The position numbers and the translations under genes were made by a program. This document shows, piece by piece, positions 18,239 through 32,839 of a stretch of 33,215 nucleotides of DNA (its first letter is position 1; every line of letters starts with the position of its first letter). The stretch comes from Anaerolineaceae bacterium. GTDB taxonomy: Bacteria > Chloroflexota > Anaerolineae > Anaerolineales > Villigracilaceae. The stretch is taken from positions 1-33,215 of the forward strand of contig VFJR01000114.1 in assembly GCA_009885945.1 (NCBI GenBank), written 5' to 3'. The notes beneath the pieces are model-generated. The model made no database searches. It saw only the letters and a list, made by a program, of their open reading frames with translations, and was not told the DNA's origin.

Positions 18239-20638
18239 ATGCCCAAGAAAAAGGGTGCCACTGCACTTCCCTTTGAAAAAGATGAAATAATAAAAGATTA
18301 CCGTCTTGCTTACCAAAGCAGGCAGGCTTCGCTTATCGGGCGCAGAGAAGTCTTGAGCGGCAAGGCTAAGTTCGGGATTTTTGGAGATGGTAAGGAAATT
18401 CCTCAGCTTGCGATTGCGCACGCGTTTCGCCCGGGAGACTGGCGTTCTGGATATTATCGTGACCAGACTTGGATGTTCATGGTTGGACTAATGAGCATAC
18501 AGGAATTTTTTGCGCAACTTTATGCTCATGCAGATGTTACTTATGATCCTGCGAGTGCGGGGCGGCAGATGAATGCGCATTTTGCCTCGCGCAATTTATA
18601 TCCAAATGGCACTTGGCGTTCGCAAACCAAAATGTACAATACCTCAGCAGATGGATCGCCCACAGCGGCACAAATGCCGCGCAGTGTGGGGCTTGCTTAC
18701 GCATCAGTGTTATATCGCAATATAAATGAATTAAAAGAATTCAAGGACTTTTCAGATAAGGGCAATGAAGTTACATTCGTCACCATTGGCAACGCGTCAA
18801 CTGCCGAAGGTTTATTTTGGGAATCAGTGAATGCCATTGGGGTGTTGAAAGCTCCCGCCGTCATTAGTATTTATGATGATGGCTACGGCATTTCTGTGCC
18901 TAATGAAATGCAAATGGTGAAAGGCAATGTGGGGAAATTGCTCAAGGGTTTTGAGCGCGAAGAAAATGGCACATCTGGATTCAATCATTACACTGTTAGC
19001 GCGTGGGATTATCCAGCGCTGGTTGAAACCTACCAAGCCGCCGCAGATAGCGCGCGTGAAGATCACATCCCCGCGATTGTGCATGTTGTGGACGTGACTC
19101 AGCCGCAAGGTCACAGTACATCCGGCAGTCATGAGAGATATAAATCTGTTGAACGATTAAAGTTTGAAGAAGACTTTGACGGATTGAAAAAAATGCGCGC
19201 GTGGATTTTAGATCAGCGTCTCATTTCTACGCCTGAACTTGATTCTATGGAAGAGGCAGATCACAACGCCGTAGAGGGATTCCGCAAAGCCGCTTGGGAT
19301 GCGTATCTCTCTCCGATTATGGATGAGCGCAATCAAGTGATGGATATGCTTGAAGAGATCGCGGGTTCTTCGAATCATGTTGCAGAGTTGAGAATGCTCA
19401 GGGATCGGCTGGCAAACCTCCCGTCGGTGGCGAGGCGTGATATTCATAGCGCCGCACATGAAGCATTGAGACTTCTGCGGGATGAAGCAAATCCCACAAA
19501 GGCAGTCCTCATCCAATGGAAATTTGAAAATGATAAATTGAATGTGGAGCGTTATGGCTCGCATTTACATTCTGGCACAGCAATGAAGATCGAAGAAATC
19601 AAACCTGTGTATTCAGACACTTCGCCGACCATGTTTGGTTTTGAAGTGGTCAACGCCGCGTTTGATTTGGCATTGGCGCGTGAGCCGCGTTTGGTTGCGT
19701 TTGGCGAAGATGTTGGAAAACTTGGTGACGTGAATCAGGGCTTTAAGGGAATGCAAGAAAAATACGGCGAGTTGCGAGTAAGTGATACAGGCATTCGTGA
19801 AGCGACAATTATAGGACAGGCGATTGGGCTGGCAATGCGCGGCTTGCGTCCTATCGCTGAGATTCAATACCTTGATTATATTTTGTATGCCATTCAAACC
19901 CTGAGCGATGATCTGGCAACTTTGCATTGGCGCAGTTCGGGTGGACAAAAAGCGCCCGTGATCGTGCGCACGCGCGGACATAGACTGGAAGGTGTGTGGC
20001 ACGCAGGCTCGCCGATGGCAGGCATTATTAATTTGGTGCGCGGCATGTATGTTTTGGTTCCGCGTGATATGACTCGCGCTGCAGGTTTTTACAATACGCT
20101 GTTGAAAGGTGATGAGCCAGCAGTTGTAGTTGAAGTATTAAACGGCTACCGCGTCAAAGAACGTTTGCCAGATAACATCGGTGAAATCACCTTGCCATTG
20201 GGGGTGCCAGAAATAATCCGTCAGGGTAGCGATGTAACTGTGGTTACATATGGTGCTTGTTGCCGCATCGTGATGGACGCCGCTGATAAATTATCCAAGC
20301 TTGGAATTGATGTTGAAGTGATAGATGTGCAATCTCTTTTGCCTTTTGACATTCACGGCATGATCGTTGAATCTTTGAAAAAGACAAACCGCGTGCTCTT
20401 TGTAGATGAAGATGTGCCAGGCGGCACGACTGCTTACATGATGCAGGAAGTAATCGAAAAGCAAGGCGGGTATTTTCATTTAGATTCGCCTGCAAAGACA
20501 TTATCCGCTAAAGCTCATCGCCCCGCATATGGTTCGGACGGTGATTATTGGTCAAAGCCGAATGTGGAGACGGTGTTCGACGCGGTGTATGAGATGATGA
20601 ATGAGGTTGATCCTGGGGTGTACCCACAAATTTATTAA
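18239..20638 (+). CDS. Fused alpha-beta E1 subunit of a 2-oxo acid dehydrogenase
   Basis: A 799-residue thiamine-diphosphate enzyme that decarboxylates a 2-oxo acid and passes the acyl group to E2. Residues about 20-350 are E1-alpha and about 460-795 E1-beta (VAFGEDVGKLGDVNQGFKGM, DTGIREATIIGQAIGLA, then FVDEDVPGGTTAYM). In alpha, the metal-binding GDG...N motif appears as GNASTAEG (184-191) and DDGYGI (213-218), a pattern I associate with fused E1 proteins. Fused E1 proteins are found among branched-chain and pyruvate dehydrogenase-like enzymes, so the substrate is uncertain. The E2 gene follows after a repeat-bearing 77-base gap. No E3 is in the window. Confidence 0.9.
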   Translation: MPKKKGATALPFEKDEIIKDYRLAYQSRQASLIGRREVLSGKAKFGIFGDGKEIPQLAIAHAFRPGDWRSGYYRDQTWMFMVGLMSIQEFFAQLYAHADVTYDPASAGRQMNAHFASRNLYPNGTWRSQTKMYNTSADGSPTAAQMPRSVGLAYASVLYRNINELKEFKDFSDKGNEVTFVTIGNASTAEGLFWESVNAIGVLKAPAVISIYDDGYGISVPNEMQMVKGNVGKLLKGFEREENGTSGFNHYTVSAWDYPALVETYQAAADSAREDHIPAIVHVVDVTQPQGHSTSGSHERYKSVERLKFEEDFDGLKKMRAWILDQRLISTPELDSMEEADHNAVEGFRKAAWDAYLSPIMDERNQVMDMLEEIAGSSNHVAELRMLRDRLANLPSVARRDIHSAAHEALRLLRDEANPTKAVLIQWKFENDKLNVERYGSHLHSGTAMKIEEIKPVYSDTSPTMFGFEVVNAAFDLALAREPRLVAFGEDVGKLGDVNQGFKGMQEKYGELRVSDTGIREATIIGQAIGLAMRGLRPIAEIQYLDYILYAIQTLSDDLATLHWRSSGGQKAPVIVRTRGHRLEGVWHAGSPMAGIINLVRGMYVLVPRDMTRAAGFYNTLLKGDEPAVVVEVLNGYRVKERLPDNIGEITLPLGVPEIIRQGSDVTVVTYGACCRIVMDAADKLSKLGIDVEVIDVQSLLPFDIHGMIVESLKKTNRVLFVDEDVPGGTTAYMMQEVIEKQGGYFHLDSPAKTLSAKAHRPAYGSDGDYWSKPNVETVFDAVYEMMNEVDPGVYPQIY

Positions 20639-20700
20639 CCACAAAGGAACGAAGGGTCACGAAGGAAAACCTTTGTGTACCTTTGTGACCCTTCGTGGTG
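20639..20700. repeat. Inverted repeat between the E1 and E2 genes
   Basis: GAAGGGTCACGAAGG (20651-20665) pairs with CCTTTGTGACCCTTC (20681-20695) with one mismatch. CCAC and GTGG close the outer ends. It carries the unit CACAAAGG...ACGAAGG, which also appears near 32850. It could modulate E2 expression relative to E1 by stabilising or terminating the transcript. Confidence 0.75.
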
Positions 20701-20715
20701 AATAGGAGTTGAATT

Positions 20716-21960
20716 ATGGCAACAAAAGTATTCGTTCCAAGATTAGGCGAAGGCGTTGATGAAGTGACTGTATCAAAATGGCTTAAACAAGTTGGCGATT
20801 CCGTCAAAGAGTTGGAGCCGTTGCTTGAGGTGAATACAGATAAAGTAGACACAGAAATCCCTGCGCCTGCTTCGGGTGTAATTCTTAAGATTGAAATGCA
20901 AGAGGGGCAGGTAGGGAAGGTGGGGCAATTGCTTGCAGTGATTGGGGAGGCAGGGGAATTAGTGAACAGTGAACAGTTGACAGTTGAAAGCAAGAAAGAG
21001 TCGAAAGTTGAAGGTCAAAGGTCAGAGCCGAAACCTGAGACCTTAGACCTTAGACCTGCGACTAATTCACACACCAATCTCGGTTTCATCTCCCCTGTTG
21101 TAGCAAAGATTGCGGCAGAATATGGCGTGGATTTGAGGCAAGTTGCAGGGTCAGGCTTGAATGGACGTATTACGAAAAATGACGTACTGGCGTTTATTCC
21201 CAGTCAAAAATCTAAGGTTGAAGGTCAAAATGTTCAACGTTCAACCTTCCAACCTGCAAACCTGAAACTTGATACTAGTGTACATGACACTTTAGTCAAA
21301 CACACTACGATGCGAAAATCTATCGCGGCGCATATGATTGAGTCGAAGCACACTTCTCCACATGTGTTAACTGTGATGGAGGCGGATATGTCTCGGGTGG
21401 TGAAGCATCGTGCGCATAATAAATCTGTGTTTGAACGTGATGGCGTCAACTTAACTTTTACAGCTTATTTTATGACCGCCATGGTTGCGGGGCTAAAAGC
21501 CTATCCTCTTGCCAATTCTTCGTGGAGCGACGAAGGTGTAATTCTGCGCAAAGATATTAATCTCGGCATGGCAGTTTCGCTTGGCGAAGACGGCTTGATA
21601 GTGCCCGTCATCAAAGGCGCGGATAATTTATCTCTGCTGGCGATGGCGCGTTCAATTAATGATCTGGCAAATCGCGCGCGCACTAAGAAATTACAGCCTG
21701 ATGATGTCAAAGGTGGCACATTTACTTTAACGAATCACGGCACAAGCGGATCGCTGTTTGCTTTTCCAGTGATCAATCAGCCGCAATCGGGCATTCTCGG
21801 AATTGGCGCCATGCAAAAGCGCGTGGTTGTGATTGATGATGCGATTGCAATCCGACCGATGGTGTATATGTCCTTTGTGTTCGATCACCGCATTCTAGAC
21901 GGCGCATCCGCAGATGCATTTTTGATGAAGGTTAAAGAGACGTTGGAAAATTGGAGTTAG
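20716..21960 (+). CDS. Dihydrolipoamide acyltransferase (E2) of a 2-oxo acid dehydrogenase complex
   Basis: A 414-residue E2. An N-terminal lipoyl domain (1-80) has the lipoylated Lys43 in NTDKVDTEI. A peripheral subunit-binding domain follows (about 126-161: VVAKIAAEYGVDLRQVAGSG, then LNGRITKNDV). The catalytic domain starts near 195 and ends with the His and Asp of FDHRILDGASAD. The two linkers are odd. Residues about 84-118 and 163-185 are encoded by repeat-like DNA, and both contain the peptide KVEGQ from nearly the same bases. The usual Ala/Pro-rich linker is thus replaced by repeat-derived sequence. It works with the E1 gene upstream and needs lipoylation by LipB and LipA. Confidence 0.92.
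   Translation: MATKVFVPRLGEGVDEVTVSKWLKQVGDSVKELEPLLEVNTDKVDTEIPAPASGVILKIEMQEGQVGKVGQLLAVIGEAGELVNSEQLTVESKKESKVEGQRSEPKPETLDLRPATNSHTNLGFISPVVAKIAAEYGVDLRQVAGSGLNGRITKNDVLAFIPSQKSKVEGQNVQRSTFQPANLKLDTSVHDTLVKHTTMRKSIAAHMIESKHTSPHVLTVMEADMSRVVKHRAHNKSVFERDGVNLTFTAYFMTAMVAGLKAYPLANSSWSDEGVILRKDINLGMAVSLGEDGLIVPVIKGADNLSLLAMARSINDLANRARTKKLQPDDVKGGTFTLTNHGTSGSLFAFPVINQPQSGILGIGAMQKRVVVIDDAIAIRPMVYMSFVFDHRILDGASADAFLMKVKETLENWS
20961..21057. repeat. Repeat cluster in the first linker of E2
   Basis: AGTGAAC, AGTGAAC, AGTTGAC and AGTTGA follow in tandem from 20961. Then AAGGTC units (21011-21023) face repeated GACCTT units (21039-21057), forming an imperfect inverted repeat. All is read in frame. 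Confidence 0.75.
21214..21255. repeat. Inverted repeat in the second linker of E2
   Basis: AAGGTTGAA (21214-21222) pairs perfectly with TTCAACCTT (21240-21248). GTTGAAGGTCAAA at its left side is also found at 21007-21019 in the first linker. Confidence 0.75.
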
Positions 21961-21997
21961 TGTGTGTTGATTTGACCCCAAATGACTTGAGAAAATT

Positions 21998-23206
21998 ATG
22001 TTAAAAAAAACAATATCAGATGTGTTGGTTTGGATGAGTTGGGTAAAACCTGCACAAAACGAAATCACCCGCCTGCGCACTTCAATCGGCATTATATCAA
22101 CGATGATGGGAATTTTCTTTTCTGCTGCGGCTGGTATTCCAGTTTATTTAAATGGAGAGCCAGTAGCAGGGCTGACGTTTTTCGCTTTAACGATCTGGCT
22201 ATTTTTAGGAATGTTGCTTTTTGCTTACAAGGAAGATCGTCTTTCAACCTGGGTGTATTTTGATTTCATTGGTCTCATTGTTACAAACCTTGTTGGCACA
22301 ATCTTGCTGGGCGGCTTACAAAGCTCGGGCTTGCTCATCATTTGGACATTACTTACGCCTTTGTTTGCACCGATCTTACTTTCACCTCGGCAAACGATCT
22401 ATTGGGGTCTGGTATTTTTTACCATGCTGATCGTAACAGCTTACATGCCAGATATGCTTGGGCAAGTTAGCTCACTGCCAGCTAGTATGCAAAAAACACT
22501 AACCTTATTTAATGTCAGTGGTATTTCTTTTTTCGTTTTAGTGATCGTGCATCTTTTTGTGACTCAACGAAATCAATATCAAGAACGTTCAGATAGTTTA
22601 TTGCTAAATATTTTGCCTCAAGAAATTGCGGATATTCTGCGGAATGAAAAACATATCATCGCGGACGCATTTGATAATGCCAGTATTTTATTTGCAGATG
22701 TGGTTAATTTCACGCCCATGTCAGCGAAGTTGTCGCCGGTTGAATTGGTGGAACTGCTTAATGAAGTTTTTTCTCATTTTGATGCACTTGTTGAAAAGCA
22801 TAATTTAGAGAAAATAAAAACCATCGGTGATTGTTATATGGCTGCAAGTGGAATCCCGCGAACGCGGGCGGATCACGCGCAGGCAATTACGAAAATGGCA
22901 TTGAATATATTGGAGTATGTGCAAACTCATGATTTCAACGGACATAGGCTTGCCTTTCGCATAGGTATTAATTCGGGACCTGTTATCGCAGGTGTGATCG
23001 GCCAGAAAAAGTTTGCATATGATTTGTGGGGAGATGCAGTTAACACTGCCAGCCGCATGGAATCGCAGGGCGCAAGCAACATAGTTCAAATTACGCGCAG
23101 TACCTATGAATTGATCCAGAATGAATTTGTTTGCGAACCCCAAAAATCACTTCATGTAAAAGGAAAAGGGGAAATGGAAGTTTGGCATGTAATCAAGGAG
23201 AAATAA
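21998..23206 (+). CDS. Membrane-bound class III adenylate cyclase
   Basis: A 402-residue protein. Five or six hydrophobic segments (about residues 28-190) are followed by a class III cyclase domain (about 220-400). The catalytic features are intact. Metal-binding Asp residues lie in LFADVVNFT (about 229-237) and IGDCYMAAS. The base-selecting Lys is in EKIKTIGD and its partner Asp in AYDLWGD, the pair that selects ATP over GTP. The transition-state Asn and Arg are in NTASRMES. The product is therefore predicted to be cAMP. The layout matches adenylate cyclases with a simple membrane anchor. The start is 37 bases after E2, with a weak ribosome binding site. Confidence 0.9.
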   Translation: MLKKTISDVLVWMSWVKPAQNEITRLRTSIGIISTMMGIFFSAAAGIPVYLNGEPVAGLTFFALTIWLFLGMLLFAYKEDRLSTWVYFDFIGLIVTNLVGTILLGGLQSSGLLIIWTLLTPLFAPILLSPRQTIYWGLVFFTMLIVTAYMPDMLGQVSSLPASMQKTLTLFNVSGISFFVLVIVHLFVTQRNQYQERSDSLLLNILPQEIADILRNEKHIIADAFDNASILFADVVNFTPMSAKLSPVELVELLNEVFSHFDALVEKHNLEKIKTIGDCYMAASGIPRTRADHAQAITKMALNILEYVQTHDFNGHRLAFRIGINSGPVIAGVIGQKKFAYDLWGDAVNTASRMESQGASNIVQITRSTYELIQNEFVCEPQKSLHVKGKGEMEVWHVIKEK

Positions 23207-23207
23207 A

Positions 23208-23678
23208 GTGACTGAAAATAATAAAGACCACGCTGATGTAAAAATTCACCCGCCTATATTGACTTTTATATTTCTGGTCATCGCATATGCGGCGAAATGG
23301 TCAATAGCCCTCCCGTTTCAAACACCTGATAACGCGCACATCATCGGCTATATTTCAATAGCCATCAGCTTCTTTTTAGCTTTAAGTGCGTTTTTAGAAT
23401 TTAGAAAGGCAAAGACGACCGTCCTGCCTCATGGAAGTGTATCCAGTATTATCAGTTCAGGTATTTTTCGCTTCACGCGCAACCCAATTTATTTAGGTTT
23501 TGTATTAATGGTAATTGGATTCCCATTAATCTCAGGCACACTTTGGGGATTGATTATTGCGCCTGCGTTTATTTATTTTATGAACAGCCTTGTGATCGAG
23601 CACGAAGAGGCATATCTGGAGAAAAAATTCGGGGATGTATATATCAGCTATAAGCGCAAAGTGAGGCGCTGGTTGTAA
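23208..23678 (+). CDS. Isoprenylcysteine carboxyl methyltransferase-like membrane protein
   Basis: A 156-residue protein with three to four membrane segments (LTFIFLVIAYAAKW, IIGYISIAISFFLALSAFL, FVLMVIGFPLISG, LWGLIIAPAFIYFM). The family's SAM-binding core is present: RFTRNPIYLGFV and EHEEAYLEKKFGDVYISYK with the terminal VRRW. Bacterial members are rarely characterised and the methyl acceptor is unknown. The GTG start is one base after the cyclase stop and is backed by AAGGAG, so it is coupled to the cyclase. It directly precedes the nonribosomal peptide genes and could tailor their product, but that is only proximity. Confidence 0.8.
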   Translation: MTENNKDHADVKIHPPILTFIFLVIAYAAKWSIALPFQTPDNAHIIGYISIAISFFLALSAFLEFRKAKTTVLPHGSVSSIISSGIFRFTRNPIYLGFVLMVIGFPLISGTLWGLIIAPAFIYFMNSLVIEHEEAYLEKKFGDVYISYKRKVRRWL

Positions 23679-23698
23679 TCATCATTGGCAGTCGACAT

Positions 23699-25501
23699 AT
23701 GAAACCTGACTTAATTATTAATAGCATTCATGAATTTTCCCTCAGAAATCCAAAAGCTGAAGCGATCCTTGCTCCTGAACGATCTGCTCTAAATTATGCT
23801 TCTCTGTACAAGCAGGTTTGCGAAATTGCACTGGCTTTGAATCATATCCAAATTAATCAAGATTCGCGAATTGCTGTGGTGCTTCCAAATGGACCTGAAA
23901 CGGCAGTTTGTTTTTTAGCCGTTTCTTCTGTTTGTGTGTGTGCTCCCTTAAACCCTGCTTACACAGCAGATGAATATAAATTTTACCTAGCCGATTTAAA
24001 GCCCAATGCGATTATTCTTTTAGCTAATAGTCAAACCCCCGCACGCTCGGTTGCAGAGAAACTGGGGATTCAAATTATTGATCTTTCCCTTGACCCAAGT
24101 GACTCGGCAGGCGTTTTCAAGCTGTCCACGAATCAACCAAGCAACTATTTAGACGCGCCTATCTTTGGTGATTTGGATAAAACAGCATTGATCTTGCATA
24201 CATCTGGCACAACTTCACGTCCAAAAATAGTGCCGCTGACCCGCCGCAATATTTTTTATTCCATGCAAAACATCGCTCAAACGTACGATCTTAGTTCCGG
24301 TGATCGCGTTTTAAATATAATGCCGCTCTTTCATATTCATGGATTAATCGGTGCGCTTTCTTCAACCTTATTTTCAGGCGGCAGTGTAATATGCGCGCCG
24401 GGTTTGAACATGGATAAAATTTTAGACTGGCTGATTGAATATCAACCGACTTGGTATACAGCCGTGCCTACCATGCATCAGGCAATTGTGGAGCAGGCGC
24501 GCCAACATCCTGAGAAATCATCAAATATAAAATTACGTTTTATTCGTTCTAGTTCGTCGGCTTTATCGCCCGCTGTGGCTATTGATTTGGAAAAAACGTT
24601 CAATACGCCTGTTTTAGAAGCGTATGGCATGACCGAAGCCGCGCATCAAATGTCTAGCAATCCGCTTCTGCCGCGCTTGCATAAATTTGGCTCAGTGGGA
24701 ATGCAAACAGGCACAACTCAAATTGTTGTTCTTGATGAAGACGGGAATCAACTTTCAGCAAATATTGTTGGCGAGATTTGCATTCGCGGCGAAAATGTAA
24801 TGAGCGGGTATGAGAATAATCCCGAAGCCAATGCCAGCGCTTTTATCAATGGTTGGCTGAGAACTGGTGATTTGGGGTATCTTGATCAAGATGGATATTT
24901 ATTTATTCATGGACGTTCCAAAGAAATGATCAATCGTGGCGGAGAGAAAATAAGTCCGCGTGAAATTGATGATGTTGTCTTGCAACATCCATCTGTCAAA
25001 CAGGCAGTGGCGTTTGCAGTGCCGCACTCAACGCTTGGAGAGGATATTGCTGTTGCGGTTGTCTTAAGAGAGGCTTGTCAGCTATCAGTACATGATTTGC
25101 GTATGTTCGTTGCGGATAAGTTATCAGAGTTCAAGGTTCCGCGGCAAATTGTCTTTTTAGATGAAATTCCAAAAGGACCCACAGGAAAAATTCAGCGCAT
25201 TGGGCTGGCAGAAAAATTGAGCGCCCAATTGCAAAAAACATCATCCTACCTGAATGACAATAGTATGCCGAGCAACCAATTTGAAGCAGATCTTTTGATG
25301 ATCTGGCAAGAAATTTTAGGAAATACATCTATTGGCGTTCACGACGATTTTATATCGGTAGGCGGTGATTCTCTACGCGCGGCACAAGTTTTGGCAAAGG
25401 TTAATAAACTTTATTCCATTAAATTAACCATGCGCGACCTGTTTGATACTTCTTCAATAACAGACCTTGCTGGCTTACTGAAAAAAATCGATGAAAAATA
25501 A
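23699..25501 (+). CDS. Acyl-adenylating ligase fused to a carrier domain (loading module)
   Basis: A 600-residue two-domain protein. Residues about 1-515 form an ANL-superfamily ligase: LHTSGTTSRPKIVPLTRRNI (P-loop, about 165-184), PLFHIHGL, YTAVPTMHQ, EAYGMTEAAHQMSSNPL, GWLRTGDLGYLDQDG, and the late catalytic Lys in PKGPTGKIQR. From memory these match oxalyl-CoA synthetase (AAE3)-type ligases better than standard NRPS adenylation domains. Residues about 520-598 form a phosphopantetheine carrier (FISVGGDSLRAAQVL, Ser near 557). The enzyme would activate a small carboxylic acid and load its own carrier, starting the assembly line. The last 11 bases overlap the next gene. Confidence 0.88.
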   Translation: MKPDLIINSIHEFSLRNPKAEAILAPERSALNYASLYKQVCEIALALNHIQINQDSRIAVVLPNGPETAVCFLAVSSVCVCAPLNPAYTADEYKFYLADLKPNAIILLANSQTPARSVAEKLGIQIIDLSLDPSDSAGVFKLSTNQPSNYLDAPIFGDLDKTALILHTSGTTSRPKIVPLTRRNIFYSMQNIAQTYDLSSGDRVLNIMPLFHIHGLIGALSSTLFSGGSVICAPGLNMDKILDWLIEYQPTWYTAVPTMHQAIVEQARQHPEKSSNIKLRFIRSSSSALSPAVAIDLEKTFNTPVLEAYGMTEAAHQMSSNPLLPRLHKFGSVGMQTGTTQIVVLDEDGNQLSANIVGEICIRGENVMSGYENNPEANASAFINGWLRTGDLGYLDQDGYLFIHGRSKEMINRGGEKISPREIDDVVLQHPSVKQAVAFAVPHSTLGEDIAVAVVLREACQLSVHDLRMFVADKLSEFKVPRQIVFLDEIPKGPTGKIQRIGLAEKLSAQLQKTSSYLNDNSMPSNQFEADLLMIWQEILGNTSIGVHDDFISVGGDSLRAAQVLAKVNKLYSIKLTMRDLFDTSSITDLAGLLKKIDEK

Positions 25502-28500
25502 TACGCTGGCGCTTTCCTTTGCGCAAGAAAGCTTTTGGATGCTTCATCAAATGGAGCCTCATAATACAGCATATAACGATGTTCTAGTACTGCGCTTGCA
25601 TGGTGAGTTGAAGATTAATATTTTGGAAGAATCTTTAAATCGGTTGCTTCAACGGCATGAAATTCTTCGTACAACTTATTTCTTAACTGAAGATGGTCCG
25701 CGCCAGCAGATTGCACCTTTTAGGCGCATGATTTTGCCTGTTAAAGAAGTTTCAGCAATTCATGCAGTAGGAAATGAAAACGAAGGGCTTGATTTTGCGC
25801 TTGCGCAATGTTATCGTTCTTTTGATCTTTTGCACGGTCCCGTTTTTCGTTTCGGCTTGGTGCGTTTTACAAGTGAGCATTTCTTGTTTTATTTTTCAGC
25901 TTGCCATATTGTCTTTGATGGATGGTCGAAAAATATAATATTGAAAGAATTATCGTTAATATATAACGCCCTCCGTCAAGGTGTTGCTCCAAACTTGCCT
26001 GAGGTAGTTCCTTATATTGAATACATCCATTGGCAAAACAATTGGGTTAAATCTGAAAATTACCAGCAAAACCGCGTCTTTTGGAAGCAACAATTTGAGG
26101 GCGGCTTGCCTCAGCTTAATATGCCGCTTGATCATCCCCGTCCGCGGCAATCTAAGCGTATTGGCAGGCGTTATTCATTTAACATCCCATCTCAAACTGT
26201 AGCTAAAATTCACGACGTTTGCAAGCGGCATCGTCTTTCGTTATTTAATTTCCTTGCTGCGGCTTATCATATTTTATTAGCGCGTTATACCGCTCAAAAT
26301 GAAATTTCAGTAGGATGTGTATTTTCCACCCGCTGGCATGTTGACATGCCGGTAAATTTTAGAAACACAGTTGGCGCTTTTGTAAACACACTTCCATTGT
26401 ATATTAATTTAAAAGATAATCCGACTGTCCGCCAAGTGCTTATTCGCACAAAAGACAACCTAATCGATGCCCTTCAATCTCAGGCATATCCGTATTACCA
26501 CCTTGTTGCAGAGATACGGCAGAATGACCGCTACAATAACAATACAGGGCTCAACGCAAGAATCAATATGCAAGGCTTCTCGAATGCATTTTATGAAATT
26601 GAAAATTTAAAAATAGAAGAAGTTTTTATTGATGAGCCAGGCTCTTACACAGATATTTTGTTTGAGATCGCAGAAGAAAGCGAAAACCTTGTTTGTGCAA
26701 TTCGTTATGACCTGGAACTTTTTGAAACTGAAACAATTGTGCATTTTACAGAAAATTTGCAAAATATTATTGACCTAATGCTTTTGGATGAAGAAGCAAG
26801 TGTTAACTCACTTCAAATAATACCTGCCAAAGAAAGACAACGCATCTTAGATTTTAATCCGCCCGCCTCAAACTACCCCTCAACCTGCCTCCACGACCTG
26901 ATCCAATCCCAAGCCGACTCATTTCCTCAGCTTGTAGCCGCCTCTTGTAACGGCGACCAAATTACGTATCAAGAATTGACGCGCCGCGCAGATGTTTTAG
27001 CGCGCAGGCTGTATTCATTTCTCAACAATACCAAAGCAATCATCGCGTTTTATTTGCCGCGTGGGATTGATTTGCTGGTTGCTCAGTTGGCAATCCTTAA
27101 AGCTGGTTCTGCTTACCTGCCGTTGGATATCACTTATCCCAAAGAGCGTACTCGTTTTATGCTGGAAGATGCCAAGCCTGCTTTGATTCTCACGTTGTCA
27201 TCCAAGCTCACTGAGATTCCTGCGGGTTTTCCTGTATTGTGCCTTGATAACGATCTGCCTGAAAGCGTAGACTCTCCGTTACCAAAAACCACAGCAGATG
27301 ATTTAGCTTATGTTCTTTACACATCTGGCTCTACAGGACAGCCAAAAGGCTCGCTTATTTATCATCGCGGCGCAGTGAATTATATTGAAGATATGATTCA
27401 CTCACGCAATCTCAAACCCGCTGAAAAGGTCTTGAATTTCACGTCTTTTTCATTTGATCCATCTGTGCGCAGTTCGTTGGGTGTGCTTGCTTTTGGCGGC
27501 ACGATTCTTTTAATGGATGATGACAAAATGCGTTCTCCGTCAGAAATTCTTCTTTCTGCGATCATTGAACAAAAAACACAGGTGATAGTGAGCGTTGTGC
27601 CAACTATGCTGCGCGCGCTATCTGATTTTGCCATTGAGATTGGAGCTTTCGATCACGAATTGAGATTGATCATGGTGAGCGGGGAGGTGTTAACCGTTTC
27701 TGATGTGCAGAAGGCGCGTCTGGCATTTGGTGCAAATATTGAAATTGTGAATCAATATGGTCCAACAGAATGCTCTATGATTACAACAACATTTAATGTT
27801 CCAGAAGAAATTCCAAGCGAATGGGCTGGAGTTCCAATTGGCATGCCGATTCGCAATACGCAGGTTTATATTTTGGATTCACATCTTCAGCTTGTACCTT
27901 GTGGAGTCATTGGCGAAATTTGCATCGGCGGCGCAGGGGTTGGCGGAGGATACCTTAATCATCCAGAACTCACCGCAGAAAAATTTGTAAAAAACCCTTT
28001 TTCGAGCAGTGCGCAAGAAAATATCTATCGAACAGGCGACTTGGGCAAGAACCTGCAAGATGGAACCATTCTCTATCTTGGACGAATGGACGCGCAGGTA
28101 AAATTTCACGGGCACCGTGTTGAATTGGGCGAAATCGAAAATGTATTAAAAAAACATTTGGGTATTCGAGAAGCTGTGGTGTTGCTTGAAAACGAAAATG
28201 AACCAAATGTTTTAATGGTCGCTTATCTAACTCTTATTTCTGGGTCTACAGCGCCTTCAGATATACGAGAGTATCTTGCTCAATATTTGCCGAACTACAT
28301 GATTCCATCTATCTTTATTGCTGTCGAAAAATTTCCCCTGACGCTTAATCATAAGATTGACCGCATCGCTTTATCTCAAACCCCAATTAATATTCCAGAA
28401 AAAAAATATGTGCCGCCGTCCAATGAAATTGAGGAAAAGCTGATGAAAATTTGGAAGCAGATCATGAAGCTTGAAAAGATTAGCGTCACCGATAATTTTT

Positions 28501-29495
28501 TTGACCTAGGTGGGCATTCTTTGGCGGCTGTCAAGATAGTAGCGTTAATTGAAAAAAAATTCCCGCAGAAAATTTCACTTGTTACATTGTTAAATGCGCC
28601 TACGATCAGACAGCAGGCAGAGATATTATTAACTGAAAAAATAAAACAAAATAATCCAATTATTGTTCCGGTTCAAAAGGGCAGCGATGCTCAGCCGCCT
28701 TTGTTTTGCCTGACAGGCAAAGGTGGAAATCCAATGCGTTTTTTTAATTTGATTAAGTATTTAAGCAAGGATCAGCCTGTATATTATTTCCGTTCGGAGG
28801 GTTTGCTGCTTGGGGAAAATATTAATAGCAGTGTTGAGGGGATAGCCTTGAATTATGTGCAGGAGGTAAAAAAAATATACCCGCTAGGTCCTTATTTTTT
28901 TCTTGGAGAATCGGGTGGCGGGTTGGTTGCCTACGAAATGGCGCAGCGATTGCATCAATTTGGAGACGAGATTGGCTTTTTAGGATTGCTCGATACTTTT
29001 GTTTGGGCGTATATGCATCAAGCAAAAACAGCAGTGCCTTACTGGCTGATTATTTTTAGAAAACATTTGCAAACATTAATCAGCGGCGGTCTGGGCGGCT
29101 TGTGGATGTATGTCGCTTACTATATTGGGCTGTGGCGTTATAAAATATACAGGTTGAAAACACGACTTGACAAGCAATGGATGCAATTTAGATATCAAAA
29201 TATTATGCAAACCTCCGAGCTTGTTGAAGTAGCCAACATAAAAGCAAACAGATCTTATATCCCTCAACATTACCCTGGTTCAGTTCATTTTTTTCACGCG
29301 GCGCTTCAAGCAAAATACGAGAATAATACAAATCACAATGGCTGGGATGAGCTTGCTTTAACTGGGTTAACTACTCATTCTTTGGAGTGCTATCATGGCA
29401 ATCTTTTGTTTGAACCCTTTATTCGGAAAGTTGCTCAGATTTTAAATCAGGAATTGAGAAATAATAATTCACGCAAGAATATGAAAGCTGTATAA
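25491..29495 (+). CDS. Nonribosomal peptide synthetase, C-A-T-TE
   Basis: A 1334-residue single-module NRPS. The condensation domain (about 5-440) has CHIVFDG (138-144) in place of HHxxxDG; the catalytic second His is kept and the first is Cys. The adenylation domain (about 460-960) has LYTSGSTGQPKGS, FDPSVRSSLG, NQYGPTECS and GRMDAQVKFHGHRVELGEIE. By eye the pocket residues read D-P-R-S-M-S-Q-M-I, a code I do not recognise; the Asp suggests an alpha-amino acid. The carrier is at about 985-1050 (DNFFDLGGHSL). The thioesterase (about 1060-1325) has GESGG for its nucleophile and a late His in CYHGN. It would join the upstream acyl group to one amino acid and release the product. No epimerase or methyltransferase domain is present. 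Confidence 0.93.
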   Translation: MKNNTLALSFAQESFWMLHQMEPHNTAYNDVLVLRLHGELKINILEESLNRLLQRHEILRTTYFLTEDGPRQQIAPFRRMILPVKEVSAIHAVGNENEGLDFALAQCYRSFDLLHGPVFRFGLVRFTSEHFLFYFSACHIVFDGWSKNIILKELSLIYNALRQGVAPNLPEVVPYIEYIHWQNNWVKSENYQQNRVFWKQQFEGGLPQLNMPLDHPRPRQSKRIGRRYSFNIPSQTVAKIHDVCKRHRLSLFNFLAAAYHILLARYTAQNEISVGCVFSTRWHVDMPVNFRNTVGAFVNTLPLYINLKDNPTVRQVLIRTKDNLIDALQSQAYPYYHLVAEIRQNDRYNNNTGLNARINMQGFSNAFYEIENLKIEEVFIDEPGSYTDILFEIAEESENLVCAIRYDLELFETETIVHFTENLQNIIDLMLLDEEASVNSLQIIPAKERQRILDFNPPASNYPSTCLHDLIQSQADSFPQLVAASCNGDQITYQELTRRADVLARRLYSFLNNTKAIIAFYLPRGIDLLVAQLAILKAGSAYLPLDITYPKERTRFMLEDAKPALILTLSSKLTEIPAGFPVLCLDNDLPESVDSPLPKTTADDLAYVLYTSGSTGQPKGSLIYHRGAVNYIEDMIHSRNLKPAEKVLNFTSFSFDPSVRSSLGVLAFGGTILLMDDDKMRSPSEILLSAIIEQKTQVIVSVVPTMLRALSDFAIEIGAFDHELRLIMVSGEVLTVSDVQKARLAFGANIEIVNQYGPTECSMITTTFNVPEEIPSEWAGVPIGMPIRNTQVYILDSHLQLVPCGVIGEICIGGAGVGGGYLNHPELTAEKFVKNPFSSSAQENIYRTGDLGKNLQDGTILYLGRMDAQVKFHGHRVELGEIENVLKKHLGIREAVVLLENENEPNVLMVAYLTLISGSTAPSDIREYLAQYLPNYMIPSIFIAVEKFPLTLNHKIDRIALSQTPINIPEKKYVPPSNEIEEKLMKIWKQIMKLEKISVTDNFFDLGGHSLAAVKIVALIEKKFPQKISLVTLLNAPTIRQQAEILLTEKIKQNNPIIVPVQKGSDAQPPLFCLTGKGGNPMRFFNLIKYLSKDQPVYYFRSEGLLLGENINSSVEGIALNYVQEVKKIYPLGPYFFLGESGGGLVAYEMAQRLHQFGDEIGFLGLLDTFVWAYMHQAKTAVPYWLIIFRKHLQTLISGGLGGLWMYVAYYIGLWRYKIYRLKTRLDKQWMQFRYQNIMQTSELVEVANIKANRSYIPQHYPGSVHFFHAALQAKYENNTNHNGWDELALTGLTTHSLECYHGNLLFEPFIRKVAQILNQELRNNNSRKNMKAV
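28396..28529 (+). repeat. Carrier-domain segment duplicated at 29554-29687 (copy 1)
   Basis: This 134-base stretch, covering the linker and Ser motif of the NRPS carrier, aligns without gaps to 29554-29687 with roughly 85% identity by eye. Similarity drops sharply just after it. Confidence 0.8.
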
Positions 29496-29528
29496 TAGTT
29501 TAAGCTAATTAAAAAAGAGGAATATATT

Positions 29529-30611
29529 ATGACCGCCCAAATCATTGAGGTTTCAGAAAAAACATATGTGCCGCCGCCCAATGAAATTGAGCAAAAGCTG
29601 GAGAAAATTTGGAAACAAGTAATGAAGATTGAAAGGATTAGTGTCACCGATAATTTTTTTGACCTGGGCGGGGATTCTTTGTTAGCTATTCAGTTGTTAT
29701 TCAAAATTAAGAAAATATTTAACTGCGATATTCCTTATGTTTCACTGCTAGAATATCCTACCATCACAGAAATCGCCAATCTTATCGAAAACAAGATGCG
29801 GTTTTTGATGCTTGAGCAAACTATTATGCCTGTGCAGCCGTTGGGAAATAATCCTCCAATTTTTTGGATTCCATCAGGGTTTGGTGTTGATCTTTATGTT
29901 CAAGGCATGGCAAAATATATGGCACCGGATCAACCTTTGTACCTATTATCAATTCCCAAGCCGGAACGCGGCGATATTTTATTAATTCCTGAGCTTGCAA
30001 AAATATACGCTGGTGAAATTATGAAGTTTCGACCGCAGGGTCTTTATTATCTTGCTGGACATTCCAATGGCGGGACAATTGCCTGTGAAACCGCAAATCA
30101 ACTGGACTTAAACGGTGGGCAGATAGGCTGGGTTAGCATTCTTGATACATCTGCTCCGAATCAAGCGCCATTAGGCTGGTTTGAATTATTCGGGCTATTT
30201 TTTATTAATTTGCGCGACCTTGGTTTTATTCGCGCACTGAAAGATATGCGGCGTAATATTTTCGTAATCATTTCGATGTTAATTCTCAAGCCTAAATGGT
30301 TGCAAAGCAAAATAATCCGAGATAGAAAAATCCCATTTTTCGATTTATTGGAAATGCGCCAAGCCGCCTACGTTAAAAACGTTTTTGTAGGACGCTTATA
30401 TCAACCACATCCTTTTCTTTTTAAGTTATTGCTTTTTGAAGCAAAAGGCTTCCGTCGCTATCATCTTTCCGACCATACAAAAGGCTGGGAAAAATTTTCG
30501 ACAGTACAGATTAAGCGTTTTGAGATGCATGGTGATCATGTCAGTATTATGGAAGAGCCGCATATTGCCAAGTTGGCACAAGTGATGTGTGCAGAAATTA
30601 AAAGTAAATAA
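29529..30611 (+). CDS. Carrier-thioesterase didomain protein
   Basis: A 360-residue protein. Residues about 10-90 form a carrier (DNFFDLGGDSLLAIQLL, Ser near 50). Residues about 105-355 form a type I thioesterase with AGHSNGG (nucleophile near 178), LDTSAP and HGDHVSIM with the catalytic His. A hydrophobic lid-like segment (ELFGLFFINL, NIFVIISMLILKP) may touch the membrane. There is no adenylation domain, so the carrier must be loaded by another protein or receive the chain from the NRPS. The N-terminus MTAQIIE mirrors the folD start MPAQIID, and the carrier segment is nearly copied from the NRPS next door. The ribosome binding site AGAGGAA is clear. It could be a second release, transfer or proofreading step. 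Confidence 0.88.
   Translation: MTAQIIEVSEKTYVPPPNEIEQKLEKIWKQVMKIERISVTDNFFDLGGDSLLAIQLLFKIKKIFNCDIPYVSLLEYPTITEIANLIENKMRFLMLEQTIMPVQPLGNNPPIFWIPSGFGVDLYVQGMAKYMAPDQPLYLLSIPKPERGDILLIPELAKIYAGEIMKFRPQGLYYLAGHSNGGTIACETANQLDLNGGQIGWVSILDTSAPNQAPLGWFELFGLFFINLRDLGFIRALKDMRRNIFVIISMLILKPKWLQSKIIRDRKIPFFDLLEMRQAAYVKNVFVGRLYQPHPFLFKLLLFEAKGFRRYHLSDHTKGWEKFSTVQIKRFEMHGDHVSIMEEPHIAKLAQVMCAEIKSK
29554..29687 (+). repeat. Carrier-domain segment duplicated from 28396-28529 (copy 2)
   Basis: Ungapped partner of copy 1. It begins 10 bases after the folD-like stretch near the gene start and ends just past the phosphopantetheine Ser. Confidence 0.8.
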
Positions 30612-30643
30612 CAAAGTTGTTTAATTCTTAAAGGAGATAAATC

Positions 30644-31522
30644 ATGCCAGCCCAAATCATTGATGGAAAATTGATCGCTCAAAATTTACGCGAGGAGGTT
30701 ACTGCAAAAGTAGCCCGGCGCCTCGCTGACGGCAAGACCAAACCCACTCTTGCAACGGTTCTTGTTGGCAGTCGTGTAGATTCTGCAACTTATGTTTCTG
30801 CTAAACAAAAAGCCTGTGCTGAATTGGGTATGGGTTCTGTCAGTCATAACCTGCCCGAGGATATTTCTCAGGAAGAATTGGAAAAGATTATCAAAAGCCT
30901 GAATGCAGATAAATCTATTAATGGGATTTTGGTTCAATTGCCTTTACCAGCTCATTTGAATGAAGAAAGAATTTTGCAATTGATCAGCATTGAAAAAGAT
31001 GTGGACGGCTTTTCCCCATTAAATATTGGTCGTCTTGCTCAAAAAGGACGAGAGCCTTTATTTGTGCCTTGTACACCCTACGGCTGCATTTATTTATTGG
31101 AAAAATCAGGGGTAAAAATTGAAGGTGCAAACGCGGTTGTCTTGGGCAGGTCAAATATTGTTGGGATGCCTGCCGCGTTGTTGTTGATCAGTAGAAACGC
31201 CACTGTAACTGTGTGTCATTCGCGCACCAAAGATATTGCGGGCATGATTCGGCAGGCGGATATTTTGATCGCCGCCATTGGCAAAACTGAATTTGTGCGC
31301 GGGGATTGGATCAAGCCTGGCGCGGCGGTGATAGATGTGGGCATTAATTCCAAGCCGGATGCGACTAAGAAAAGCGGCTATCGTTTAGTGGGGGATGTGA
31401 ATTACGATGAAGCGAAAGAAACGGCTGGGTTCATCACTCCAGTTCCGGGCGGGGTTGGACCGATGACGATCGCCATGCTGATGAATAATACATATCGCGC
31501 GGCTGAGATTCAAGATAGTTGA
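30644..31522 (+). CDS. folD: Methylenetetrahydrofolate dehydrogenase/cyclohydrolase FolD
   Basis: A 292-residue bifunctional enzyme linking methylene- and formyl-tetrahydrofolate. Seen are YVSAKQKACAELG with the catalytic Lys, GILVQLPLPAHL, DVDGFSPLNIGRL, PCTPYGC, VLGRSNIVGMPAALLL for NAD(P) binding, and TPVPGGVGPMTIAMLM. Length and motifs are normal. A strong AAAGGAG precedes the ATG. The gap to the carrier-thioesterase gene is only 32 bases with no terminator, so it is probably co-transcribed. It is housekeeping and probably was there before the peptide cluster. Confidence 0.96.
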   Translation: MPAQIIDGKLIAQNLREEVTAKVARRLADGKTKPTLATVLVGSRVDSATYVSAKQKACAELGMGSVSHNLPEDISQEELEKIIKSLNADKSINGILVQLPLPAHLNEERILQLISIEKDVDGFSPLNIGRLAQKGREPLFVPCTPYGCIYLLEKSGVKIEGANAVVLGRSNIVGMPAALLLISRNATVTVCHSRTKDIAGMIRQADILIAAIGKTEFVRGDWIKPGAAVIDVGINSKPDATKKSGYRLVGDVNYDEAKETAGFITPVPGGVGPMTIAMLMNNTYRAAEIQDS

Positions 31523-31528
31523 TTGAAT

Positions 31529-31560
31529 AAAAAAAGTCCATATTTCTATGGACTTTTTTT
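31529..31560. terminator. Bidirectional terminator between folD and the FKBP gene
   Basis: AAAAAAAGTCCATA and TATGGACTTTTTTT form a 14-bp perfect stem around a 4-base loop. It serves both convergent genes and closes the long plus-strand run. Confidence 0.9.
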
Positions 31561-31574
31561 ATTGATATACTTTT

Positions 31575-31910
31575 TTATTTCATTGAAACGAGTTCTACAT
31601 CAAAAACAAGCGTTGCATTGGGCGGAATTACGCCGCCCGCACCGCGTTCACCGTAAGCAAGATTTGGGGGAATAGTGAGCTTTGCCTTGCCGCCGACTTT
31701 CATGAGGGCAATGCCCTCGTCCCAGCCCTTGATGACATTGCCTTTTCCTAATGGAAATGTGATCGGCTCGCCGCGTGTGACTGAGCTGTCAAATACTGTG
31801 CCGTCTAATAATTTGCCTGTGTAATGCACGCTGACGACTTTTCCCGCCACTGCCTGCGCGCCTGTGCCTGCTTCTACTTCGACATATTCCAATCCGCTTG
31901 ATGTTTTCAT
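31575..31910 (-). CDS. FKBP-type peptidyl-prolyl isomerase
   Basis: A 111-residue single-domain FKBP without signal peptide, so cytoplasmic. It has [37 protein letters not shown], and [20 protein letters not shown], the standard active-site strands. It speeds proline isomerisation in folding proteins. GGAGAG lies 4 bases before the ATG. It is monocistronic. Confidence 0.95.
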
Positions 31911-31952
31911 TTTCTCTCCATTTGTTTTTTTTGTGGATTGTACCTTTAAAAA

Positions 31953-31971
31953 CTAGCATTTCGTGTGCTAG
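31953..31971. promoter_or_regulatory. Inverted repeat in the FKBP/sdhC divergent region
   Basis: CTAGCA and TGCTAG, 7 bases apart, lie just upstream of a rightward TAAAAT (31977-31982). On the other side is a leftward TACAAT (31938-31943). The site could control either gene. Confidence 0.35.
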
Positions 31972-32027
31972 GAGGGTAAAATCAAGAATTGTGACTAAAG
32001 TTACAAATAAAATTTTAGGAGATTTAC

Positions 32028-32408
32028 ATGAGCTTGAAAAGAGATGTTAGCCTTTCTACAGCTCTGCGATACAAAGGACAAGGTCCGTTTTTGACTTTTA
32101 TTTTGCATCGTATTGGCGGAATAGGAATGGCGCTCTTCATAACATTGCATGTGTTGGCTTCATTTGTTGAGGGCAGAGGTTGGAAAATTGGGGATGTGAT
32201 TAATGATATTTATATCAATCCTGTCTTCCAAATTGTTTTGCTGTTTTTTGTATTATTCCATGTCATTAATGGATTACGCATCACAATGCTAGACCTTTTC
32301 CCAACCCGCTTAATTCAATACCACCGTCAAGCGATTAAGCTTGAGTGGGTTGTGTTTATTGCTATCTATGGCTTTGCTGTGATTTCGATTATAGGGAGCA
32401 TGTTATGA
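32028..32408 (+). CDS. sdhC: Succinate dehydrogenase cytochrome b subunit
   Basis: A 126-residue membrane subunit of complex II that binds heme b and quinone. It has the N-terminal ALRYKGQGPFLTFILHRIGG with the conserved HRxxG. Three helices follow: GMALFITLHVLASF with the probable heme-ligand His, FQIVLLFFVLFHVINGLRI, and LEWVVFIAIYGFAVISIIG. TAGGAGA lies 7 bases before the ATG. It overlaps sdhD by four bases. Confidence 0.88.
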   Translation: MSLKRDVSLSTALRYKGQGPFLTFILHRIGGIGMALFITLHVLASFVEGRGWKIGDVINDIYINPVFQIVLLFFVLFHVINGLRITMLDLFPTRLIQYHRQAIKLEWVVFIAIYGFAVISIIGSML

Positions 32409-32839
32409 ATCAAGCCAAAGCAAGAAATTTACCTTTGTCTAAACGCGGGATGAGTTTTGAAACCGTGATGTGGGTCTTTACCCGTGCTACCGCGCTTTTG
32501 ATGTATGGCTTCATCCTGGTGGGCATTGTTGGCGCGTTGATGATGGGCGCAGCAAATGATATGAATTTTGCAGATATTTTGCGCTGGGCGCTCATGCCGA
32601 ATGTTTCACATGTTGAGAATACGAACCTTGCAGACTTGGCTCCTTGGGCAACGACCTTTTGGAAACTAGTGGCAATGGGATTGTTCGTCACAGCCTCATC
32701 TCATGGCGTGCATGGTGTGATTGTTGTCTTGGATGATTACTTTGCAAAACATTCGCACCGTCAAATAATCCGCGGGATTTGTGTGATTATTTTTCTTGCT
32801 GTTGCGCCTGCTGGTTTGTATGTTATTTGGACTTCGTAA
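32405..32839 (+). CDS. sdhD: Succinate dehydrogenase membrane anchor subunit
   Basis: A 144-residue three-helix protein: FTRATALLMYGFILVGIVGALMMG (split here as FTRATALLMYGFILV and GIVGALMMG), then FWKLVAMGLFVTASSHGVHG with His residues placed for heme and quinone binding, and ICVIIFLAVAPAGLYVIW. The ATG at 32405 overlaps the sdhC stop (ATGA), and an upstream in-frame start inside sdhC is not needed. The catalytic subunits sdhA and sdhB would be expected next but are not seen in the remaining 376 bases. Confidence 0.85.
   Translation: MNQAKARNLPLSKRGMSFETVMWVFTRATALLMYGFILVGIVGALMMGAANDMNFADILRWALMPNVSHVENTNLADLAPWATTFWKLVAMGLFVTASSHGVHGVIVVLDDYFAKHSHRQIIRGICVIIFLAVAPAGLYVIWTS

Follow-up and report, generated by a model that had tools for sequence, protein, structure and literature searches.

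The window analysed here, a stretch of 33,215 nucleotides (nt) from an Anaerolineaceae bacterium (contig VFJR01000114.1; genome G000, 209 contigs, 95.7% complete), carries at 23699-30611 three adjacent plus-strand genes encoding a ligase-carrier didomain, a single-module nonribosomal peptide synthetase (NRPS) with condensation, adenylation, thiolation and thioesterase domains (C-A-T-TE), and a carrier-TE didomain. We propose that these genes specify a nonribosomal line that carries out a single condensation, joining a small-acid starter, most likely oxalate, to one amino acid, a reading to which we give about an even chance. Open reading frames (ORFs) and Pfam matches bear out the initial annotation of this DNA, which described a minimal line with one condensation domain, two activating domains, three carriers and two thioesterases. 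Its prediction that the product is probably an acylated amino acid is likewise supported, an N-acyl amino acid being what such a line would be expected to make, with the acyl donor now probably oxalate.

The first gene (23699-25501, 600 amino acids (aa)) encodes an oxalate-CoA-ligase-like adenylating enzyme (residues ~16-497) followed by a carrier, T0 (residues 531-594). Its Pfam matches are AMP-binding (237.1 bits), AMP-binding_C (54.6) and PP-binding (50.8); these, and all Pfam scores quoted below for the other two genes, exceed the gathering score. The best matches of the ligase domain in the PDB are oxalyl-coenzyme A (CoA) synthetases from grass pea (E = 2.4e-123), Arabidopsis (1.2e-118) and yeast (Pcs60, 1.1e-106), and the fourth is a shorter construct of yeast Pcs60 (1.3e-75). 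Malonyl-CoA synthetase is the next kind of enzyme (3e-62), with fatty acyl and aryl ligases ranking below; the domain is nearer to the solved oxalate-CoA ligases (AAE3/Pcs60) than to other acyl-CoA ligases. AAE3 of Arabidopsis and grass pea and yeast Pcs60/Fat2 are its closest solved sequences over the whole domain and share its pocket His, Arg and His, but they are free enzymes making oxalyl-CoA, whereas the ligase here, whose oxalate activity is a prediction, is fused to a carrier beside an NRPS.

At nine pocket-equivalent positions the ligase-carrier reads HGGTRSAHQ, compared with HGGSRCAHQ in yeast Pcs60 and HGATRCAHL in AtAAE3; the pocket residues are H212, H214, R283 and H316. The first His, the Arg and the last His (HRH) sit at the oxalate-ligase columns and are kept in 35 of 37 ligase-carrier rows, among which two loci appear twice (L172 = L018, L251 = L132), and in 94 of 94 rows from free-standing relatives. 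The two exceptions are G400 (HRS) and L183 (HRM), and a control malonyl-CoA synthetase reads HIN at the same columns. Among the eight AMP-binding enzymes of the genome, three of which could not be aligned reliably, no other has the HRH pattern. These residues would bind oxalate, judging from their position, and the acyl acceptor of the domain is more likely its fused carrier than CoA. Rather than a generic acyl chain, oxalate or some other very small oxo- or diacid is the probable donor. Because the domain is closest to solved oxalate-CoA ligases, the pocket His and Arg are kept and a reductase stands beside free-standing relatives, oxalate is the likeliest starter, with chances that we set at roughly half.

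The reductase was seen in a capped sample of free-standing ligases, taken from a phylum draw (400 genomes, 53 with a close ligase) and from the top 80 among 589 confirmed places in named genomes. Almost every phylum-draw locus that was opened carries a free-standing ligase of ~500-600 aa, and two carry carrier fusions (L131, L132). Fifteen of the 132 loci L120-L251 have no ligase row, an overlapping ORF having been chosen; three of these (L126, L152, L170) hold an ApbA-type ORF that is not counted here. At 43 of 94 free-standing loci, a same-strand gene for a PanE/ApbA-type reductase is found no more than 400 nt away (18/46 from the phylum draw, 25/48 from named genomes). Among the ORFs of these loci, ApbA-type frames make up 43/185 near the ligase versus 3/652 more than 2 kb away (Fisher p = 8e-27, an overstated value as the loci are related). 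PanE2 of Methylobacterium extorquens, which appears to belong to the same reductase type, is called a putative oxalyl-CoA reductase in a passage of PMC8411744, and is employed as one in the relevant part of PMC12686821; a passage of PMC7486775 gives it the name CoA-acylating glyoxylate dehydrogenase and places an ApbA2 homologue near frc-oxc. The pairing of reductase and free-standing ligase at 43 of the 94 loci (which include L123, L128, L129, L186 and L247) resembles an oxalate-to-glyoxylate operon, whose reductase would be a putative PanE2. In a ligase tree all ligase-carriers fall into one supported set of 20 rows together with four free-standing rows (99 SH-aLRT); L049, listed there as free-standing, is a carrier fusion whose start is truncated. 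Two reductase-linked ligases lie at this set, L121 inside it and L123 next outside.

Three of 23 ligase-carrier loci have a thiamine diphosphate (ThDP) enzyme as the next gene, its start overlapping the stop of the ligase-carrier gene in a 3-nt-offset junction (L177 2274-3827, L199 9960-11624, L220 1923-3587). These proteins resemble oxalyl-CoA decarboxylase and acetolactate synthase, and their NCBIfam scores are divided between the two families, all under the cut-off. At L199 and L220 an NRPS gene follows within 5 nt. An ORF resembling oxalyl-CoA decarboxylase occurs within 6 kb at these 3 of 23 ligase-carrier loci and, among the 94 free loci, at L186 alone (80 bits, at a distance of 1801 nt). 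The ThDP enzyme might decarboxylate or extend a carrier-bound oxalyl group.

Ligase-primed NRPSs are known, and fatty acids are the usual starters where the priming enzyme is a ligase-carrier. The line could be a lipo-amino-acid pathway: the substrate of the ligase would be a medium- or long-chain fatty acid, and an N-fatty-acyl amino acid would result. The best NCBIfam match of the ligase, the FadD7 family of fatty acid-CoA ligases, speaks for this and against oxalate, although at 413.6 it stays under the cut-off of 650; the long-chain fatty-acid-CoA ligase subfamily scores 347.8 against a cut-off of 476, and no NCBIfam fatty-acid-CoA ligase cut-off is reached. A fungal relative of Pcs60 is reported (PMC8826238) as important in fatty acid metabolism, and the account of an Acinetobacter C-A-T-TE operon in PMC5376624 ties it to a C15 acyl compound. 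However, oxalate ligases rank far above fatty acyl-CoA synthetases (1.4e-123 versus 3.7e-58 for FadD13), the polar Arg/His pocket persists in nearly every ligase-carrier row, and the reductase and ThDP-enzyme neighbours suit oxalyl thioesters. Sequence rank and pocket rule out a generic fatty-acid starter as the first choice, and we regard the lipo-amino-acid line as unlikely.

A further competitor is another small 2-oxo or 2-hydroxy acid (glyoxylate, pyruvate or a ketopantoate-like acid) that would be the substrate of the PanE/ApbA reductase of free-standing relatives. The reductase neighbours are named 2-dehydropantoate 2-reductase (NF005089, 483 and 494 bits, cut-off 223), an oxalate pocket could accept related acids, and the ThDP neighbours score about equally for acetolactate synthase and oxalyl-CoA decarboxylase. 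The pocket nevertheless agrees with that of yeast Pcs60 at 7 of 9 positions, and Pcs60/Fat2 is employed as an oxalyl-CoA synthetase in the passages of PMC12686821 and PMC8099913 that concern it. We consider such a starter rather improbable.

The second gene (25491-29495, 1334 aa) has all the domains of a minimal C-A-T-TE NRPS in one protein above the Pfam cut-offs (Condensation 308.8 bits, AMP-binding 236.6, AMP-binding_C 29.4, PP-binding 53.2, Thioesterase 49.8), with the carrier Ser and the TE triad present. The C, A and T1 matches span 25497-26849, 26904-28355 and 28434-28622, and TE1 runs from ~28698 to 29465, an end taken from the TE alignment. The C-domain motif is CHIVFDG, which keeps the second His and the Asp-Gly and has Cys for the first His. 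With GrsA as the ruler, the A-domain code is DPRSMSQMIK. We take Arg239 to read the alpha-carboxylate in A domains that activate a side chain. Side-chain-carboxyl-activating A domains of the Arg239 type have Asp/Glu235, Arg239 and His/Asn278; the A domain here has Asp235 and Arg239, and position 278 is Ser. Arg239 also occurs in three A codes beside ligase-carriers of relatives (G251 DARSLSQLIK, G222 DPRHFALLVK, G214 DARHMSTITK) and is not in those of G024, G331, G400, G236, G067 and G189. Literature searches for A specificity codes returned nothing. A survey of 2051 A domains (PMC12283262, section 12) assigns DPRHLALLAK to alpha-aminoadipate and DPRHVSLLAK to a domain annotated for Asn; Asp235, Pro236, Arg239 and Lys517 are in common with these, but the remaining six positions are unlike. 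ACV synthetase activates aminoadipate via its side chain, according to a passage in PMC7147772. Because Arg239 is as in the alpha-aminoadipate and Asn-annotated codes, our best guess from the code is an acidic or amide residue, perhaps activated or linked through its side-chain carboxyl. Elsewhere, codes near that for aminoadipate occur in C-A-T-TE or C-A-T proteins at L078 (7509-11804, DPRHFVSRAK), L077 (8120-12127, DVRHFALLAK) and L179 (17225-20455, DPRHFAILVK).

Under the oxalate reading, the ligase domain would adenylate oxalate and load oxalyl onto its own carrier, T0. The A domain would load one amino acid onto T1, a step that the code suggests faintly, and the C domain, going by domain order, would couple oxalyl to the amino group. 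TE1 would then free the product by hydrolysis or cyclisation. That product is likely an N-oxalyl amino acid whose residue is uncertain.

Several observations weigh against oxalate. For the ligase-carrier and its bacterial relatives the activity is a prediction from sequence and context, and the context is uneven: 51 of 94 free-standing loci have no PanE/ApbA-type reductase inside 400 nt, some free-standing ligases have unrelated neighbours, and the reductase stands at 0 of 23 ligase-carrier loci, limiting the association to free-standing ligases. PanE/ApbA reductases also take other 2-oxo acids. The oxalyl-CoA decarboxylase family cut-off was passed in 0 of 56 genomes; this and the counts of decarboxylase-like ORFs given above led us to reject decarboxylative breakdown of oxalate as the setting in which the free ligases work. 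A close relative, G400 (L043 5247-7127), has an altered pocket, GGAARATSA, with two His lost; with its Gly-like A code (DILQLGMIWK) it offers a natural contrast for starter specificity. Partner A codes differ between relatives, and the A code in the window is distant from all published ones, sharing at best three specificity positions plus the Asp and the Lys. Lastly, the sole phosphopantetheinyl transferase found in the genome is of AcpS size (ORF of 123 aa), and a search of this incomplete genome with the Sfp-like protein from beside the G214 cluster returned no meaningful match.

Among characterised architectures, the nearest one found is the A1S_0112-0119 operon of A. baumannii, associated with compound Ac-505, which has one C-A-T-TE NRPS (A1S_0115/AB3403) and a separate carrier (A1S_0114) as described in part of PMC5376624. 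AB3403 is also the top PDB match of the carrier-TE protein in the window (4zxh, E = 4.8e-28). The operon differs in that its carrier is free rather than fused to the ligase, Gly is bound in the A domain and a C15 acyl group is proposed in Ac-505, and the section describing it mentions no oxalate-type ligase and no carrier-TE gene (PMC5376624). An acyl-CoA dehydrogenase was sought in the window, with no Pfam match in the ten proteins from 18239 to 32839. The C-A-T part has its top PDB match in LgrA, the linear gramicidin synthetase (E = 3.6e-241), a multi-modular and formyl-primed enzyme that has no ligase-carrier starter. Grass pea offers a parallel for the product, in that its AAE3-type ligase (LsAAE3) provides activated oxalate for oxalyl-diaminopropionate, an N-oxalyl amino acid; the portion of PMC9935904 on LsAAE3-LsBOS has a BAHD-type partner making the amide, whereas carriers and a C domain are proposed here. 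Searching the literature for the pathway or for its architecture turned up no counterpart of the three-gene set, in line with the initial annotation, which knew of no described pathway with these genes. We know of no NRPS with an oxalate-type ligase-carrier as its starter, and no literature search combined oxalate with nonribosomal peptides.

A ligase-carrier at E ≤ 1e-115 is present in 14 of 400 genomes of the order, the source genome included. Nine of the 13 relatives have a C-domain protein after it or fused to it (G024, G331, G101, G400, G236, G067, G189, G222, G214). G251 has NRPS modules on either side, G191 is a ligase-carrier-TE, and the stretches around the ligase-carriers of G305 and G207 hold no NRPS domain. 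Of the three-gene set that the initial annotation had suggested searching for, the first two genes, ligase-carrier and single-module C-A-T-TE, recur in five relatives (G024, G331, G400, G222, G214), and the carrier-TE gene is seen in none of the seven with readable downstream sequence (G024, G400, G236, G067, G189, G222, G214; only 147 codons are visible in G222, and G331 stops at a contig end). The G024 locus is split over two contigs sharing 141 nt, and the gene after its C-A-T-TE is on the opposite strand. A scan of the genome collection with the NRPS protein alone yielded zero relatives. On the C-domain tree only the window, G024, G331 and G400 group together (86/84), and a single clade for all ligase-served C domains is unsupported, with five changes on the tree. 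At L046 (9425-14929) and L047 (9256-14748), C and A flank a second C-like domain, which lacks the HxxxDG motif and forms a long branch of its own in that tree.

In named genomes, 69 of the best 80 of 589 places yielded a ligase row; the enzyme is a ligase-carrier in 21 of them and free in 48. Ten of these ligase-carriers have C-A modules in the same locus or protein, eight are ligase-carrier-TE proteins and three are neither or cut. Sources of ligase-carriers include Gemmatimonadota, Acidobacteria, Bacteroidetes, Verrucomicrobia, Planctomycetes (Uabimicrobium), Desulfobacterales, Beta- and Gammaproteobacteria (among them the culturable named strain Methyloversatilis universalis EHg5, L200) and others, as well as Chloroflexota. 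Ligase-carrier-TE proteins without a C domain were noted at L044, L132 (= L251), L174, L175, L176, L181, L182, L183 and L222; in these the TE could possibly transfer oxalyl onto a nucleophile. We suggest, tentatively and with more doubt than confidence, that these lines are a widespread and unrecognised class of bacterial NRPS, primed by oxalate via a ligase-carrier derived from free oxalyl-CoA synthetases. The window would hold its smallest form, with an N-oxalyl amino acid as product, and in some members a ThDP enzyme would decarboxylate or extend the starter before the peptide bond is made.

The third gene (29529-30611, 360 aa) encodes a carrier, T2 (29592-29786; PP-binding 57.8 bits), and TE2 (from ~29856; Thioesterase 54.8 bits). 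All three carriers have intact Ser motifs (T0 GGDSL, T1 GGHSL, T2 GGDSL), and the alignment gives complete Ser/Asp/His triads in TE1 and TE2 (Ser178/Asp206/His337 in the latter). TE1 shares 58% identity (153/265) with the TE of a second protein of the genome, an A-T-TE protein (C81) encoded outside the line, compared with 26% (66/250) for TE2. The two pair in the TE tree (99/96) within a group of four (100/99) whose other members are also from A-T-TE proteins. TE2 is most similar to the TE of the G024 C-A-T-TE (30-32%) and sits on a long branch, with no supported group in the tree holding it. A direct plus-strand repeat joins the two carriers: copy 1 (28398-28525) is the N-terminal half of T1 up to GGHSL and copy 2 (29556-29683) that of T2 up to GGDSL. 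The copies match at 105 of 120 nt, then at 32/60 and 30/60, and the upstream edge is equally sharp. Given that TE1 nests among separate A-T-TE proteins and that half a carrier recurs (105/120 nt), we read the surplus carrier-TE as an apparent remnant of an exchange of release domains. In the simplest story, a C-A-T-TE like that of G024 would have gained an A-T-TE-type TE behind T1, and the older carrier-TE, probably the original release domain, would have been left as a separate gene. Copying between the half-carriers may have come later, the order of events being our reconstruction. Since catalytic residues are kept in both TEs, TE2 may be a working second release station or proofreader. The donor-like A-T-TE protein (893 aa; L017 7780-10461, G000:C81:79893-82436) has the A code AGARISQRLK, which is without Asp235, and its gene adjoins an ABC transporter with a substrate-binding protein.

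A decaying or silent locus, in which the half-carrier repeat and duplicated TE are recombination debris and no Sfp-type activating enzyme serves the carriers, would fit the 95.7%-complete genome's lack of a detected Sfp-like protein beyond one AcpS-size match and the absence of the third gene from the seven readable relatives, but we think it very unlikely: ORFs, carrier Ser and TE triads are all intact across 7 kb, same-family relatives retain the ligase-carrier/C-A-T-TE pair, the activating-enzyme gene may be missing from a genome in 209 contigs, and AcpS enzymes sometimes modify other carriers.

The genes around the line are closely spaced on the plus strand. A membrane methyltransferase gene (23208-23678) ends 20 nt before the ligase-carrier, which overlaps the C-A-T-TE gene by 11 nt; 33 nt then separate the latter from the carrier-TE gene and 32 nt lead on to folD. 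The methyltransferase, called ICMT-like in the initial annotation and offered there as a possible tailoring enzyme, scores higher for PEMT (59.2 bits) than for ICMT (27.4 bits). No homologue was matched around the 13 ligase-carrier loci of relatives, some of which lie in stretches cut by contig ends; a role in the pathway is therefore unsupported, and we rejected the methyltransferase as tailoring enzyme, taking it for a neighbour that probably lies outside the pathway. Upstream are genes for 2-oxoacid dehydrogenase E1 and E2 and a class III cyclase, and a large regulator with an NB-ARC-type ATPase, TPR repeats and a LuxR DNA-binding domain is encoded at 202-2709. Genome G000 yielded no second C domain.

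The same starter unit stands beside many other unstudied bacterial assembly lines. If the starter is oxalate, orphan NRPS clusters in Chloroflexota, Acidobacteria, Gemmatimonadota, Planctomycetes, Proteobacteria and others would gain their first predictable building block, and genome-mining tools that call such ligases fatty acid starters would err. The apparent release-domain exchange, with its junction still visible, bears on how assembly lines evolve. N-oxalylglycine mimics 2-oxoglutarate, and N-oxalyl amino acids bind metal and resemble 2-oxoglutarate, so that a biological activity for the product of this line can be guessed.

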